The position numbers and the translations under genes were made by a program. This document shows positions 21,204 to 30,012 of a stretch of DNA of 30,612 nt, in pieces (position 1 is the stretch's first letter; each line of letters opens with the position of its first letter). The notes under the pieces were generated by a model. It was not told where the DNA came from, did no database searches, and was given only the letters and a program-made list of their open reading frames with translations. Origin of the DNA: a virus; the IMG/VR virus record IMGVR_UViG_3300023192_001317, positions 1-30,612 of that record, one strand, 5' to 3'.

Positions 21204-21839
21204 TTATGTCCCTTTATGTGCTTCACTCCGATTTTGAATATCATTCTCGCCAAATTTCATTAAAAAATAAGAATCTATGAAATCATTCACAGGGCTCGAG
21301 GCCGCCGCTTTGTCAGGAGTCATTTCTTTACTTAAATCGATCCCTGTGTCTTTGATAAACTGATTGTGCATATCCCACTTAGTTGAGTTGCCATGTCCTG
21401 TTGCAAATTTCTTCACGGTAGTTGGCGCGACCAAATGAACTTTCAATCCTGATAAAACATTTCTATTACCATTGTCATCATGTTCTGGAGCGGTGGAATC
21501 TAACCATAAAAAATGTTTCAGGAGGCCTGTATTTTCGGCCATGTGAAATACCTTGCCGGTCGATGCATAGGAATAATCTTCTAGATATACATCAGACACC
21601 TTATGAACCGCTAATACTTCGGTTGCCCATTCGCCGAGATGGTCGTATCGTTCCTGCTCACAATCATACTCTCTCAATGTACTACCGACAATAAGAAACT
21701 TGCCATACTTATGAGCCTTCCTGTATTTTTTAATAGAAACAAAGTACCCATAATAATCTACAAACAAATCATCTTCATCGCCCTGAATGCAAATTGCAGG
21801 ACAGCCTAAAGAATAATCAATCCCTGCTATTCTACTCAT
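21204..21839 (-). CDS. RuvC-like Holliday-junction resolvase, tail truncated
   Basis: The RNase H-fold nuclease core is visible: IAGIDYSLGCPAI (D8), VYLEDYSYAS (E87), and a final acidic VNDFIDSYF (D186/D189). Between them, HMAENTGLLKHFL and VAPTTVKKFATGHGNSTK match RuvC 'G.lk' and 'PttvKk..tG.G.a.K' segments. It should cut branched DNA during replication or packaging. It overlaps the upstream reductase half by eight bases. It ends SEAHKGT, the first residues of a NUMOD3 repeat cut short by a 10-base duplication. Confidence 0.82.
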   Translation of the reverse strand: MSRIAGIDYSLGCPAICIQGDEDDLFVDYYGYFVSIKKYRKAHKYGKFLIVGSTLREYDCEQERYDHLGEWATEVLAVHKVSDVYLEDYSYASTGKVFHMAENTGLLKHFLWLDSTAPEHDDNGNRNVLSGLKVHLVAPTTVKKFATGHGNSTKWDMHNQFIKDTGIDLSKEMTPDKAAASSPVNDFIDSYFLMKFGENDIQNRSEAHKGT

Positions 21840-22536
21840 CTTTAATCTCCTTGAAATCTACAGGACACGCACCATTATCACAATTAACATGAATGAGGTC
21901 TATATCTTCTGCAATTTCTGTAGTCAAGGCCCTAGAGATTTCTTCATATTCAACCTTAGTCAATGCTTCTTCTGGCTGATACTCATATGCATTTTCGTCC
22001 ATCATAGGCATCACCGCACAACACTTGATGAGGCTTTGATATTTGAGTATCATTTCTTTGAAGTGTTTGAAATCTACTATTTCAGGATTATACTTCAATG
22101 TATAAGAAATTTGGTTTCCATATTGGTCTTGATCTGATTCGCCATTGATCCAATACTTCTCGCCTAGCTGCAACCATTTATATTGCTCTTCGGGTGTCGC
22201 TTCAGAAGCAGTTACCAATTTATCTCCCAGGCCTAAATTTGTAATAACCGGGGCGGTGGGGAATCCGATAATAGTTGTTCCTTCATATTGTTTCAATTCT
22301 TTGGATGGATACCCATGAGATTTATATTCTTCAATCAATGGATCATCGCTACGAAATTGAACCCATCTCATATACCACGCCTTCGCTGGGAGATGCCACC
22401 CCTCTGTAAGCCCGAATAATTTTGATGTGGTATTATGAACAACAGCTCCATTTGATAATTGATATGAATGGGTATCTTCTACTTCAATATCAACCGTCAT
22501 TTCGGATTTACATTTTTTTATATTTTTAATTTTCAT
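21832..22536 (-). CDS. Class II ribonucleotide reductase, C-half with C-intein
   Basis: Residues 1-35 are the C-terminal half of a split intein: a VDIEVEDTHSYQLSNG block F and VVHN at the end, with Thr36 as the +1 extein residue. Residues 36-234 resume the reductase at TTSKLFGLTEGWHLPA, exactly where the N-half stops at TIKPAG. They end with CDNGAC (C219/C224), the CX4C redox pair of monomeric class II enzymes. The gene starts at 22536, behind AAAAGG, and overlaps the HNH gene by 11 bases. After splicing in trans the reductase would be about 754 residues, close to the Lactobacillus leichmannii enzyme (739). Confidence 0.92.
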   Translation of the reverse strand: MKIKNIKKCKSEMTVDIEVEDTHSYQLSNGAVVHNTTSKLFGLTEGWHLPAKAWYMRWVQFRSDDPLIEEYKSHGYPSKELKQYEGTTIIGFPTAPVITNLGLGDKLVTASEATPEEQYKWLQLGEKYWINGESDQDQYGNQISYTLKYNPEIVDFKHFKEMILKYQSLIKCCAVMPMMDENAYEYQPEEALTKVEYEEISRALTTEIAEDIDLIHVNCDNGACPVDFKEIKDE

Positions 22537-23188
22537 TTATTTTCCTTTTATATGTTCGCCCGCGGCGGAAAGCTTTATTTTCTTTTAAATATTTTTCAAT
22601 CGAACATTTCAATTGCATAGATTTGGTATATTTTTTTGTCACTGTTCCATCCGTAATCCAAAAAAAGCCTTTATTTTTTGCTCCGCCACGTTTTCCCATA
22701 CTAGATTGAAATGAGGAATCTCTGAATTGTGGAGCAGCATGGCCGCCAAGTGAAGCATATTTTTTTTGGTTTTTTGGATCATATATACCATTTTTATTTT
22801 TTTGTTGTATTTTCCAGCCACCAGATAAACCGCCCATTTTCCCCCATTTACTTCTCTCATTATTACTACCACCATGAATTCCCAAACCCTCTTTTGCGGT
22901 TTTCGCGCCTCCAATTTTTCCGGCAATTGATGAAATTTTTCTTCTGACTGTTGGTGGATATTCTCCCGACAACATATAGTGAGCAGTCAAATCTTTTATA
23001 TCACCATGTTTCTCATATAATCTTAGGTGCCGGATTGAATGGGTCTTTCTATCAAGAGATTCTAAATTATATACATCATCCGTCCCGCCTAGCCTGCGCG
23101 GCAATTTATGGTGTACATCATGGCCCTCTGTAATTGGGCCATGATGTAAAATATATAATTTCCTATAGTTATAATTTCTGTTTTTCAT
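22526..23188 (-). CDS. Free-standing HNH endonuclease in split-intein gap
   Basis: The product (220 residues) contains an HNH core (EGHDVHHKLPRRLGGTDD, then YNLESLDRKTHSIRHLRLY) followed by a Gly/Lys-rich repetitive region ending GGAKNKGFFWITDGTVTKKY, a pattern of DNA-binding endonuclease tails. ATG 23188 is chosen over an upstream GTG because AAAGGGGG lies before it. It sits exactly between the intein halves, the arrangement of fractured genes described by Dassa and colleagues (2009). It would cut intein-free reductase alleles and spread the whole unit. A TATAAATA element lies 43 bases upstream. Confidence 0.9.
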   Translation of the reverse strand: MKNRNYNYRKLYILHHGPITEGHDVHHKLPRRLGGTDDVYNLESLDRKTHSIRHLRLYEKHGDIKDLTAHYMLSGEYPPTVRRKISSIAGKIGGAKTAKEGLGIHGGSNNERSKWGKMGGLSGGWKIQQKNKNGIYDPKNQKKYASLGGHAAPQFRDSSFQSSMGKRGGAKNKGFFWITDGTVTKKYTKSMQLKCSIEKYLKENKAFRRGRTYKRKINEN

Positions 23189-23229
23189 AATAGTATGCCC
23201 CCTTTGTTCTAGTAGGTTTAATAACACTA

Positions 23230-25224
23230 TTATTTATAAGAAATGACATTTTCGCCGCCGTCCAATTTATCGACCCGAACCCAGCCGCGATCAGTAAGAA
23301 ATTTATGATTCCCAGTAAATTTATAAGTTTTTCCATCTTCAAATTCTATTTCATATACTTCATTTTCTCCATTCACATAAAGACTTGTCACCTTTTTTTC
23401 ATTATTATTTTCATCATACACAATTATATCTTCTTTTGGATCATGCCAATATTTATTATCCTTCATACTATTTTCTATATTGATATCATGTTTTTTAAAT
23501 AAATCACCTAAAGATATTACACCATCTTTAGTTTTTATTTTAACATCTAGAGTTCCACATCCTGCAGGCTTGATTGTTGTCATTGTATGCGGAACAGGAA
23601 GTTTCAATTTCTTAGAATATTTTATTGCTTCATCGTGGACCGCTCGATTAAATCTTGCTAATGTTTCCCAAAATTCTTTGCTCTTTTCTTCATCAATTAA
23701 ATCACGAAATCCAAACCCAAAGAACTTCCATGCAAATTCATGTACTCCTGTCATACCAACACCGATTCTATTTGTTCTCTTTACTTCCTTATTGTAAATT
23801 GAATCCATCAGATTCACTCTAATCAACGCTCGAGTAGAGACACGGAATGCTTCCTCTGCTTCGTCTAGTGTGTCTGCATGAAACGGAACCACATCTGCAA
23901 TCACACAAAACCCACCTAAAACATTCAATGCAATTTCACCACACGGATTTGTAATTGTATGGAATTTTTTCTTCTTGGCCTTCTTCGCAAGTTTAGAAAG
24001 ATAGATTTGAGTATCTTCATTCAATTGATACTTTTTACTTCCAACATAATCACCACGATTAAGATCATCCCAATCGGTGTCATTCTGAACTAACATATCG
24101 GCATTTATAATTCCCGGTTCGCCGGTCCCATCAGCATAAGAAGCTTCTGCAATCAGATTGAAAACCTTTCTCGCATGAGTTGGAAGATATGCTGTATACC
24201 CTTCATGCCCTCGCTTGATGGCAAGGCACCCCCAAAATTCTTGATCAACCATAACTGAATTATTAGACGACCAAAGAAATCCTTGTGGAGTAGATGACAC
24301 ACCTTTCCGATATTCAATAATTTCTTCACCACTCAATCCATTATATTCAATTGGACGTTTAATGGTTATAAAATCCAAGATGGTTTTATCTTTCCAATGT
24401 TTCGTGCTCATCCTCGCGGAGCGTCTTGCTCCTCCAACTAGGACACACTCTGCGAACATATGGTCAATATACATCGCCTGCTTCCATGGTGCAAGCCCGG
24501 CGCCCTTCAAGGTAGAAGCTTTATAAAATGCATTCATTAAAGGAACGGGTCCACTGGCGGGTCTGTTTTGCATTCCACCAATAGGTGCATTCTTTGGCCG
24601 CACATCGGAAAAATCAATGATCAACATCTTATCCTTATGAATTTTTTCGAAAGCTGCGTTCTCCCACAATTCTACTGCTTTGGCCCAGCCTTCTCTCGTA
24701 TCAGGAACTTGATACCACAATGTATCTCTCCCGGTTCCATACTTATGTTTTGCGTCCCTTACACTTTCATGGGCAGACATATCATAATCAGGATGGGTAT
24801 CTTCTAGAACGCACCTAACAGCTGGAGCATTATCCCAATCAATAATAACCATATCATCATCATAACAACGGCCAACACCGCTCCCATTAAGTAACAAATA
24901 GAACATAATGAAACTCGCACTAGCTGTAGCACAATTTGTAAACACTTCCATATTACGTTTTTCTTGATTTGTGTCACCATGTTGTAAATGTCTTCCGCTT
25001 AATAGGGTGGTTGCTTTAGCGAGATGTTTTCTAAGATACCGATATTCTTCCTCTCGTTCTTCTGTTGTTTTACAAAGTAGGGAATTACCATGAGCAACTC
25101 TTGTCGCAACATCTCCCCATTTTTCAAAATTACCATTATGTAGCCTTCGGAGAATAGTTCTTTCTGCAACCGCCTGGCCCATGCCAGGATGAAAGTCCCT
25201 TGTGGACCCGTTGTATATTGACAT
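23230..25224 (-). CDS. Class II ribonucleotide reductase, N-half with N-intein
   Basis: Residues 1-555 are an adenosylcobalamin-dependent reductase: FTNCATAS (C98), GSGVGR, and NPCGEIAL with the radical Cys428 and Glu430, then C440. TIKPAG ends the N-extein at 555. From Cys556 the remaining 109 residues are an N-terminal intein: CGTLDVKIKT block A and FTGNHKFLT block B (TxxH). The ATG at 25224 forms a TAATG overlap with thyX, with AAGGA before it; an upstream in-frame start is not used. Class II needs no oxygen or second subunit, and makes dNTPs for phage replication. Confidence 0.93.
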   Translation of the reverse strand: MSIYNGSTRDFHPGMGQAVAERTILRRLHNGNFEKWGDVATRVAHGNSLLCKTTEEREEEYRYLRKHLAKATTLLSGRHLQHGDTNQEKRNMEVFTNCATASASFIMFYLLLNGSGVGRCYDDDMVIIDWDNAPAVRCVLEDTHPDYDMSAHESVRDAKHKYGTGRDTLWYQVPDTREGWAKAVELWENAAFEKIHKDKMLIIDFSDVRPKNAPIGGMQNRPASGPVPLMNAFYKASTLKGAGLAPWKQAMYIDHMFAECVLVGGARRSARMSTKHWKDKTILDFITIKRPIEYNGLSGEEIIEYRKGVSSTPQGFLWSSNNSVMVDQEFWGCLAIKRGHEGYTAYLPTHARKVFNLIAEASYADGTGEPGIINADMLVQNDTDWDDLNRGDYVGSKKYQLNEDTQIYLSKLAKKAKKKKFHTITNPCGEIALNVLGGFCVIADVVPFHADTLDEAEEAFRVSTRALIRVNLMDSIYNKEVKRTNRIGVGMTGVHEFAWKFFGFGFRDLIDEEKSKEFWETLARFNRAVHDEAIKYSKKLKLPVPHTMTTIKPAGCGTLDVKIKTKDGVISLGDLFKKHDINIENSMKDNKYWHDPKEDIIVYDENNNEKKVTSLYVNGENEVYEIEFEDGKTYKFTGNHKFLTDRGWVRVDKLDGGENVISYK
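23231..23238 (-). promoter_or_regulatory. TATAAATA, possible late promoter for intein-gap HNH
   Basis: An exact T4 late core overlaps the last codons of the N-intein, 43 bases before the HNH start. It would let the endonuclease be made separately from, and later than, the reductase. Confidence 0.45.
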
Positions 25225-26147
25225 TAGTTTTCCTTTTCGGTTTTTAATAATTCTTCTTTCATGGCTGTATGAATCTTCATCCACGATTCTACATCAGGCC
25301 ACATTTCATTTAGTCTTATTCTGAATTCTGCCAATTCTCTTTTACCCATCTTCAATCTAGGTGGAGTATCTGCAACTGCCTTGTCCCAAGGTATTCCATT
25401 GAGAATCTGCCACATCAAAGTTTGTTCCATCATGGAAAATGTTTGTGCTTCCCAAATGTAATCATTCCACGCTTCAAACAAAATTGGAAACTTGGGCGCA
25501 GCAAGTTTACGCATCGCCCAGGCAAAATCTTGTATTTCCTGTTGCGCATGGCTATCACAACGAAGTTTCAAAAATCCAAAGAAATTCTTTAGGTCTATTT
25601 TCCAATAACATTCTGTGTAGACTGAAACAGGGAGAACCATTCTTGCAGTTTCTCTGGTGATACCCTGATCTATCATAGCTTGATATCTAAAATATGCATC
25701 ATCTGCTAGACCCTTCATTTCACTTTGCGATTCCATTCGTACAAGGCCAGGAATTGCGTTTCCCCTTCCCTGCTTATTTGTTTTACTTTGAGAGCAAATA
25801 TAATCATCTTGCGGGATATAAAATTCATCAGGCATTTCAGAATACCTTGCAGAGTATTCATTCAAATTTGCTGTACGATGCCTTACTAATTGACGCATGA
25901 CAAATATAGGGAGTTTAATATGAAACTTTACTTCACACATTTCCAATGGACTTGTATGATGATGACTCACTAGATATCTAATAAGGTTTCTAGTGTCACT
26001 AATTTTCCTTGTTCCGCCGCCATATGAAACCCTTGCAGCTTCCTCTACAGCTTCATCTGAACCCATCGTGTCTACCAGACCTACAAATCCGTGGTTGTGA
26101 ATACAAATATATCTCAAATCATGTTTTACATCATCTTGTGTTGGCAT
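25224..26147 (-). CDS. thyX: Flavin-dependent thymidylate synthase
   Basis: RHRTANLNEYSARYS (residues 89-103) is the ThyX signature, RHRxxSxNExSxRYS in form with Ala where many have Ser. A C-terminal TARMVLP-like segment (ETARMVLPVSVYTECYWKID) also fits. The enzyme uses FAD and methylene-tetrahydrofolate to make dTMP. The 307-residue length is longer than some cellular copies because of the C-terminal helix region. ATG 26147 with AAGGA upstream is chosen over a GTG nine codons earlier. It is coupled to the reductase, which it complements in dNTP supply. Confidence 0.93.
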   Translation of the reverse strand: MPTQDDVKHDLRYICIHNHGFVGLVDTMGSDEAVEEAARVSYGGGTRKISDTRNLIRYLVSHHHTSPLEMCEVKFHIKLPIFVMRQLVRHRTANLNEYSARYSEMPDEFYIPQDDYICSQSKTNKQGRGNAIPGLVRMESQSEMKGLADDAYFRYQAMIDQGITRETARMVLPVSVYTECYWKIDLKNFFGFLKLRCDSHAQQEIQDFAWAMRKLAAPKFPILFEAWNDYIWEAQTFSMMEQTLMWQILNGIPWDKAVADTPPRLKMGKRELAEFRIRLNEMWPDVESWMKIHTAMKEELLKTEKEN

Positions 26148-28882: not shown

Positions 28883-29512
28883 TTATTCCATTTTAAACAA
28901 TTCTTCCTGTCCTAGAATAACTTCTTTGCCCGATTCTCTATGTGTCACTTTATAAATTTCGATTCCCAAAACTGTGTCTATTGGTTCTGTATCTTTTTTC
29001 ACATCAATGAAATCACCAACCAGCATATCAGGGCCTTTATCAGTATCAACTACACCAGCATCTGGTTGGGAAACTTTTAATTTGTAAACACCTTTCTTTA
29101 AGGTTTCTTCTTTCATGTATGTTTCAAATTGTACGTCTAATCCAATCACTGGCATAATATTAGTTTCCTTCAAATGTTCAATCAAAAGTCGTTCAAGATT
29201 TTCTGGATATTCCATCCCTTCGGCAGATGCGTGTTCTTTTACAAACCATAGCGCAGCTGCGTATGATGCAAGTTTGGTTTTACCAAAGGGTAGTTTCCCC
29301 ATCAATCTTTTAATCATCCAAATTAATCTGTGGAAGATTGTGTACGCATTTCTTTCTTCTGGTGATTTTAATGTATTTCTTTTACGAAGTATTTTACAAT
29401 TCTCATCTATAATACCTAATTTGAACGCATTTGTATCAACAAAATTTTGCGTAAGTATACGCAGGAAGCGATAAGTCATGTAGAGATCAATCGCGCCAGC
29501 CACGACACCCAT
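28883..29512 (-). CDS. Conserved T4-superfamily protein, 209 aa
   Basis: IDLYMTYRFLRILTQNFVDT, then AFKLGIIDENCKILRKRNTL, then FHRLIWMIKRLMGKLPFGKT and KLASYAAALWFVKEH, follow a pattern I recognise from a conserved protein of marine T4-like phages, where it is annotated as hypothetical. The C-terminal half has a strand-rich segment (VDTVLGIEIYKVTHRESGK type). The role is unknown. GGAGAAAA precedes the ATG, which overlaps the HNH stop as TAATG. Confidence 0.75.
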   Translation of the reverse strand: MGVVAGAIDLYMTYRFLRILTQNFVDTNAFKLGIIDENCKILRKRNTLKSPEERNAYTIFHRLIWMIKRLMGKLPFGKTKLASYAAALWFVKEHASAEGMEYPENLERLLIEHLKETNIMPVIGLDVQFETYMKEETLKKGVYKLKVSQPDAGVVDTDKGPDMLVGDFIDVKKDTEPIDTVLGIEIYKVTHRESGKEVILGQEELFKME

Positions 29513-30012
29513 TATATTTTCTCCAATAAATTAAGTTTAAATCCTTTATGGTGGTTTCTTTTTCCTGAAGTAACCTTGGATAGAGCTCCTTGATCTAAAT
29601 TATATTTTTTACAAAACGGAATTAAGTTATATATTTTTTCAATAGTTCCATTTGGAAATTCTACCAACCAAGTCTTAGTTCTATTATTATTTCCTTTCTG
29701 TGCATTACTAATAGCTTTTAATGCCTTTTCTGAATAATAATTTTTTTTACCTTTATTCCATGCAGGCGCGCTTCTTTTTTCTCCTCTGCGAGCTCGGCCT
29801 GTTAAGATATATATATATTTTATAATTTCTTCTTTGCCAATTTGTCTCGATAAGCCTTCCCAAGCAATTTTATCTTGCCATCTTCCATGTGTTTCAAAGA
29901 GCACACGATGAGCTTCAGCGTGTTGCTCAACAGTCAGTTCTATTAAATTTGAGGAATCGTCTGTTCCCCCAACATGGCGCGGAATTATGTGATGCTTGTG
30001 CATTAGGCTCAT
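29512..30012 (-). CDS. HNH homing endonuclease with NUMOD-type tail
   Basis: HKHHIIPRHVGGTDDSSNLI and EQHAEAHRVLFETHGRWQDK give the HNH core. SRQIGKEEII, then WNKGKKNYYSEKALKAISNA (NUMOD3-like), and a C-terminal WLVEFPNGTIEKIYNLIPFC helix-turn-helix stretch (NUMOD1-like) follow. The core aligns well with the 12189-12602 gene, so both derive from one family. It stands free between two conserved phage genes: AAGGAAG before its ATG, TAATG coupling at its end. Confidence 0.9.
   Translation of the reverse strand: MSLMHKHHIIPRHVGGTDDSSNLIELTVEQHAEAHRVLFETHGRWQDKIAWEGLSRQIGKEEIIKYIYILTGRARRGEKRSAPAWNKGKKNYYSEKALKAISNAQKGNNNRTKTWLVEFPNGTIEKIYNLIPFCKKYNLDQGALSKVTSGKRNHHKGFKLNLLEKI

Follow-up and report, generated by a model that had tools for sequence, protein, structure and literature searches.

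Genes that are broken into separately encoded halves by a split intein, so-called fractured genes, have been known since 2009, with seven nrdA and two nrdJ loci reported (PMC3653736). The locus analyzed here, a class II (B12-dependent) ribonucleotide reductase gene (nrdJ), lies in a 30,612-base phage fragment from IMG/VR (IMGVR_UViG_3300023192_001317, positions 1 to 30,612; the whole stretch is referred to as the window) and is a conserved enzyme gene broken in two by a split intein, the intein halves being separated by a free-standing putative endonuclease gene. The report of Dassa et al. (2009) is said to announce a new endonuclease family in its title, whereas the window nuclease is of the HNH type, with GIY-YIG nucleases in related loci. 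What the window has in common with the fractured genes of Dassa et al. (2009) is the enzyme gene, the split intein and the free-standing endonuclease gene that lies in the gap.

Regarding other described systems, NrdJ-1 is likewise a split intein of a class II reductase and has a Hint fold (8ubs, matched by the model of a window relative, see below), but its native junction is NPC|SEI with an obligate Ser at position +1 (PMC13123727), whereas the window intein sits at KPAG|TTS, outside the NPC|SEI insertion point, and is followed by Thr at +1. The DNA polymerase B gene of Pseudomonas phage MIJ3 has a split intein with an HNH open reading frame (ORF) in the gap (PMC6892783), but host gene and intein both differ from those of the window. 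Among cultured phages, the window N-intein has its closest relatives in NrdA inteins of Klebsiella phages; those of KP13-7 and phiKp_21 (L068 and L067) resemble the window in a 33% identical N-intein, the split, Thr at +1, insertion at the corresponding loop of the class I enzyme (MPGE|TSSQ) and a separate ORF in the gap, and differ from it in belonging to a class Ia NrdA, in a gap ORF that is HNH-like by eye without a Pfam match, and in one middle piece that carries both a C-intein and an N-intein.

The initial annotation of the window had assigned the locus to the fractured-gene arrangement, which agrees with the published fractured genes, with NrdJ-1 and with MIJ3 polB and its HNH gene. It had also called the locus a useful new example of a split intein in a B12-dependent reductase; the window is a new instance of a known arrangement, but not the first such intein, NrdJ-1 being widely used. 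The arrangement is already known, and what makes the window interesting is the family to which it belongs.

Anatomy of the interrupted reductase gene

The reductase locus lies entirely on the minus strand. Translation of the ORFs gives a reductase gene in two ORFs with a third ORF (HNH) between them, in the order N-half, HNH, C-half, with the following features:

25224-23230, minus strand: N-half (N-extein and N-intein), 555 extein residues ending TTIKPAG, followed by C1...K109
23560-25224, minus strand: N-extein, class II ribonucleotide reductase, 555 residues; TIGR02505 to position 518, phrog_367, 85% amino acid identity to the intact NrdJ of the related locus L003
23230-23559, minus strand: N-intein, 109 codons and stop, C1 nucleophile, block B TGNH; TIGR01445 over cut-off, orthologues, low guanine plus cytosine (GC) content
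23198-23205, minus strand: Shine-Dalgarno-like AAAGGGGG ahead of the HNH ATG, from sequence
22526-23188, minus strand: putative free-standing HNH endonuclease gene, 220 residues from ATG; Pfam HNH E=0.0044, homologues over cut-off
22547-22951, minus strand: tail at the C-terminus of the HNH protein (residues 80-214), which probably binds DNA, common to GIY-YIG nucleases at the same site
22543-22549, minus strand: Shine-Dalgarno-like AAAAGGA ahead of the C-half ATG, from sequence
22536-21832, minus strand: C-half (C-intein and C-extein), a 35-residue C-intein followed by 199 extein residues
22432-22536, minus strand: C-intein, 35 residues, ends VVHN; TIGR01443 over cut-off, aligned with C-inteins of relatives
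21832-22431, minus strand: C-extein, 199 residues and stop, Thr at +1, starts TTSKLFGLTEG; TIGR02505 from 518, aligns with 1l1l from residue 551

The stop of the N-half and the start of the HNH gene are 41 nt apart, the HNH end and the C-half start overlap by 11 nt, and a Shine-Dalgarno-like purine run stands upstream of the ATG of each of the three ORFs. The exteins join without a seam into a class II reductase, as initially annotated: the match of the N-half to the RTPR model TIGR02505 stops at position 518 and that of the C-half restarts at 518. The separate halves score 168.6 and 51.6 bits against this equivalog model, the cut-off of which is 340. Both exteins have Lactobacillus leichmannii RTPR as their top PDB match, with the junction at about residue 551 of that protein, in what is known for this enzyme family to be the substrate-phosphate loop.

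The intein blocks, for which a profile search had been proposed as a check, exceed the NCBIfam cut-offs at both ends: the 109 residues following TIKPAG match intein_Nterm (TIGR01445) at 29.8 (cut-off 24.5), and the 35 residues that end in HN before TTSKLFGLTEG match intein_Cterm (TIGR01443) at 23.9 (cut-off 15.6). On the N fragment by itself, the Pfam model Intein_splicing reaches 30.8 and stays under its cut-off of 35.8. The intein parts are AT-rich, with a GC content of 0.28 and 0.26, the exteins having 0.40 and 0.39, and the window N-intein is 33-46% identical to orthologues at the same or the matching site. A self-splicing RNA intron could in principle interrupt the gene as well, group I introns being common in phage reductase genes (PMC3653736), but here the flanking sequence codes for intein with codon precision, and we regard this explanation as extremely improbable; a comparison of positions 21700-25400 with Rfam, at E values of up to 1, gave no match.

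The locus as a whole is best read, with support from these comparisons, as a split intein with trans-splicing and an HNH homing gene; the arrangement is not a chance one because independent contigs repeat it at the same residue. Very probably, the split intein rebuilds the reductase by trans-splicing and the HNH protein spreads the block by homing. Three proteins would be translated from the locus, and the two halves would associate by way of their intein parts. Standard splicing by Cys1 and the +1 Thr, with final cyclization of the Asn, would give an uninterrupted, B12-dependent reductase of 754 residues. During co-infection the HNH protein would probably cut intein-free nrdJ in or close to the TIKPAG|TTSKLFG codons, and repair after the cut would copy the whole block of roughly 1.13 kb. 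We infer trans-splicing from the conserved anatomy, and cleavage and homing by the window HNH protein from its position, patchy distribution and homology.

An intein family at the reductase loop

Members of the family were found using patterns for the two junctions, followed by scans with the nuclease and the N-intein. The junction patterns gave L062 and L063 (both split, with HNH) and L064 (contiguous, without a nuclease), all inserted at the same residue. The 26 inteins compiled comprise two contiguous ones, six split without a nuclease, eleven split with HNH, six split with GIY-YIG and one, in NrdA, from Klebsiella phage KP13-7. L062, L063, L070, L092, L095 and L116 have split inteins at the same site whose gap holds a homologue of the window HNH gene, the split inteins without a nuclease (L088, L093, L096, L101, L102, and L104) have 21-128 nt between their parts, and in the contiguous mini-inteins (L064 and L089) the N- and C-intein sequences are joined via a short linker. 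In L089 this stretch is DEIVSF-YKEKD-MRIKRI, in which a short linker stands between what corresponds to the end of a split N-intein and to the start of a split C-intein, so the break sits at the usual place for a nuclease insert. Most class II members are inserted at KP[ASE]G|T, and those of L078 and L098 at KPSGNA|S.

C1 and the terminal HN are kept in all 26 inteins, block B reads TxxH in 24 and SxxH in two, and position +1 holds Thr in 24 of them and Ser in the other two. The short C-intein and the Thr at +1, both singled out initially as special features of the window, are thus ordinary for this family, in which C-inteins have 35-38 residues where measured. The contiguous intein of L064, whose N-part is 39% identical to that of the window, gave a confident Hint fold in AlphaFold (predicted local distance difference test 94.1), and the closest PDB folds to this model are inteins, including Npu DnaE (1.5e-8) and NrdJ-1 (8ubs). 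A mixed alignment of N and C fragments was misaligned, probably owing to the internal symmetry of the Hint fold, and another alignment was used instead; the NrdJ-1 sequence in the C-intein alignment served as a guide only.

The ratio of nonsynonymous to synonymous substitution rates (dN/dS, from dN and dS) is about 0.06-0.11 between related N-inteins, which are under purifying selection. These observations bear on the improbable alternative of a gene in pieces that does without splicing, in which the halves would join non-covalently into an active reductase and the intein remnants would be inert tails. Such assembly has a precedent in the NrdA of Aeromonas phage Aeh1, split by a homing endonuclease gene (PMC3653736, PMC10448857), but inert tails fit poorly with intein blocks over cut-off, catalytic residues invariant in 26 homologues and purifying selection on related N-inteins. 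Similarly, the window derives from a metagenome contig and contiguous inteins are known at the site (L064 and L089), so that frameshifts from assembly or sequencing could be suspected in a contiguous intein containing an HNH domain. The three-ORF order is, however, repeated in independent contigs, each window ORF has its own start and Shine-Dalgarno-like site, and the contiguous members are without a nuclease; there is next to no probability left for this explanation.

The N-intein of the class II family (L087, E up to 1e-6) had no tblastn match in 50,697 cultured phage records. No description of the intein family was found in the literature searched, in which Dassa et al. (2009) is represented through citing papers; absence from these papers and from the cultured records is not proof.

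Regarding bacterial sequences, a DNA pattern search gave a single contig from a bacterial bin, L116, binned as a Flavobacteriales bacterium. It carries this split intein together with the HNH gene, next to thyX, and may be a phage contig. The reductases of L062, L063, and L064 have a further intein elsewhere, upstream of NC|STAAA in L062 and at NPC|GEI in L063 and L064. Three-piece reductases with two split inteins are found at L068:2335-3360, L076:1497-5010 and L078:1-4014, where the middle piece has a C-intein at its start and an N-intein at its end. In cultured Salmonella STP4-a and Proteus PM2 phages the UvsW helicase is split by an intein (L065:2251-4977; L069:2314-5046), and the gap ORF, annotated as a hypothetical protein, is nuclease-like, with TnsA-like and NUMOD3 matches in L065.

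The HNH nuclease and its shared tail

The initial annotation placed a separate HNH gene exactly between the halves, and the ORF at 23188-22526 agrees with this: the gap protein is, by homology, a predicted HNH nuclease, whose homologues exceed the Pfam HNH cut-off (29.8 and 27.5). The window protein is of full length and has kept H26 H27, N41 and H50 of the HH..N..H motif. A viral scan with the single window HNH protein gave no relatives; these were found with an alignment of three HNH proteins, and in BLAST the window protein shares 34-45% of its residues with the HNH proteins that occupy this gap elsewhere. The dN/dS for nucleases between related loci is about 0.13-0.23 (from dN and dS).

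The HNH and GIY-YIG nucleases at the site have a common C-terminal tail of about 135 residues. Residues 80-211 of the window HNH protein are 44.9% identical (E about 1e-30) to the tail of the GIY-YIG protein of L100, and the window tail scores 190.8 bits against the tail profile, the window sequence itself being one of the profile's five. Pfam matches of the heads are over cut-off for HNH in L070 and L122 and for SegE-type GIY-YIG in L100 and L078. The tails being homologous and the heads not, the catalytic heads have been exchanged at least once. The tail tree mixes HNH and GIY-YIG tails, and the short tails resolve poorly. In the approximately unbiased test a single clade of all GIY-YIG tails is not rejected (p-AU 0.146), and a single clade of the intein-resident GIY-YIG tails, among them L137 and L146 without a C-intein match, is rejected (p-AU 0.009). 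More than one head exchange is therefore unsupported.

In the 50,697 cultured phage records tblastn found no match to the shared tail either (query L100, E up to 1e-5). Tails of this kind also occur outside reductase inteins: GIY-YIG proteins with a more distantly related one (L131, L136, L138, and L139) lie next to what look like phage tail sheath genes. The window itself has a second HNH ORF (29512-30012, minus strand, 166 residues, phrog_655 homing endonuclease), the head of which is about 43-45% identical to the intein HNH head over roughly 50 residues and the tail of which is different.

Free-standing endonuclease genes beside their targets are known from intronless and collaborative homing, as with F-CphI beside psbA in cyanophage S-PM2 (PMC6083498). 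HNH genes of the same family as that of the window lie directly behind intact, intein-free nrdJ at L119:2749-3387, L120:2755-3411 and L122:2761-3390; those of L119, L120/L121, and L122 are of full length and start at or a few bases from the nrdJ stop. These loci resemble F-CphI in having a free-standing endonuclease gene next to a target gene, but with F-CphI an intron in the neighbouring gene gives protection, whereas nrdJ of L119, L120, and L122 is intact and intein-free. The position of these genes suggests that nrdJ is the target of the HNH nuclease. Other fetched relatives of L122 showed no HNH gene behind nrdJ within the available DNA, some of them ending at contig ends. Just after the site L119, L120, and L122 read TVSAL and most relatives TVSQL; resistance of the target site, as a reading of this, is not supported, TVSAL also being present in 13 of 72 nuclease-free relatives and local mismatches not being clustered at the site.

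Splicing might also work with an HNH gene that is inactive or has its target elsewhere, the intein persisting by inheritance, which we consider possible, though rather unlikely. Six same-site inteins are split without a nuclease (those listed above), the HNH protein of L076 is shortened and no longer has the leading His of its HH pair, and the N-inteins of L096 (no nuclease) and L100 (GIY-YIG) are 92.5% identical, so that nuclease genes enter or leave without disturbing the intein. An inactive gene agrees less well with the full length and kept motif of the window HNH protein and with the constraint on related HNH genes, and a target elsewhere with the three same-family genes directly behind intact nrdJ.

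Distribution and mobility of the element

The initial annotation had placed the insertion at a conserved reductase loop; of the 59 related viral loci found in a scan with the N-extein, nearly all have an uninterrupted KP[AS]GT at the site. The nearest relative, L003, is 85% identical over the N-extein and has nrdJ as a single ORF, in the same gene order as the window: primase, thyX, nrdJ, a RuvC-like protein and a conserved protein of 313 residues. In the extein tree the window pairs with the intein-free L003 (SH-aLRT 98), inside a group that has no other inteins at the site, and on the starred branches the split state with HNH needs at least three changes. The nesting of the window reductase among intein-free ones indicates that the element is probably mobile. 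It has been gained or lost repeatedly, and gain is the simpler reading because the closest relative is intein-free.

Several observations weigh against trans-splicing combined with homing as the reading of the locus. The distribution by itself does not separate gains from repeated losses, and no co-conversion tract is visible relative to L003, in a comparison that lacked a donor-recipient pair. The window protein alone scores 17.6 with Pfam HNH, under the cut-off of 21.4 (E=0.0044), and the AlphaFold model of its tail is of low confidence and had no PDB match at E below 0.4.

Regarding the family, the KP[AS]G|T loop of phage reductases may be one site repeatedly used by one intein family, in contiguous and split form and split with HNH or GIY-YIG, with different catalytic heads on one conserved DNA-binding tail and with the same HNH gene also behind intact nrdJ, a proposal for which we see the chances as evenly balanced. 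The order in which fractured genes originate, with a nuclease invading an intein or an intein splitting first, needs intermediates at one site, and the states at the reductase site are intact, intact with a nuclease next door, contiguous mini-intein, split without a nuclease, and split with either nuclease type. A testable claim is that HNH and GIY-YIG heads make use of a single DNA-binding tail, and the site supplies natural Thr+1 split inteins for protein engineering. If the proposal is true, these loci would form a natural series that traces how split inteins and homing endonuclease genes become combined, and the tail would act as a module that directs nucleases to the reductase loop.
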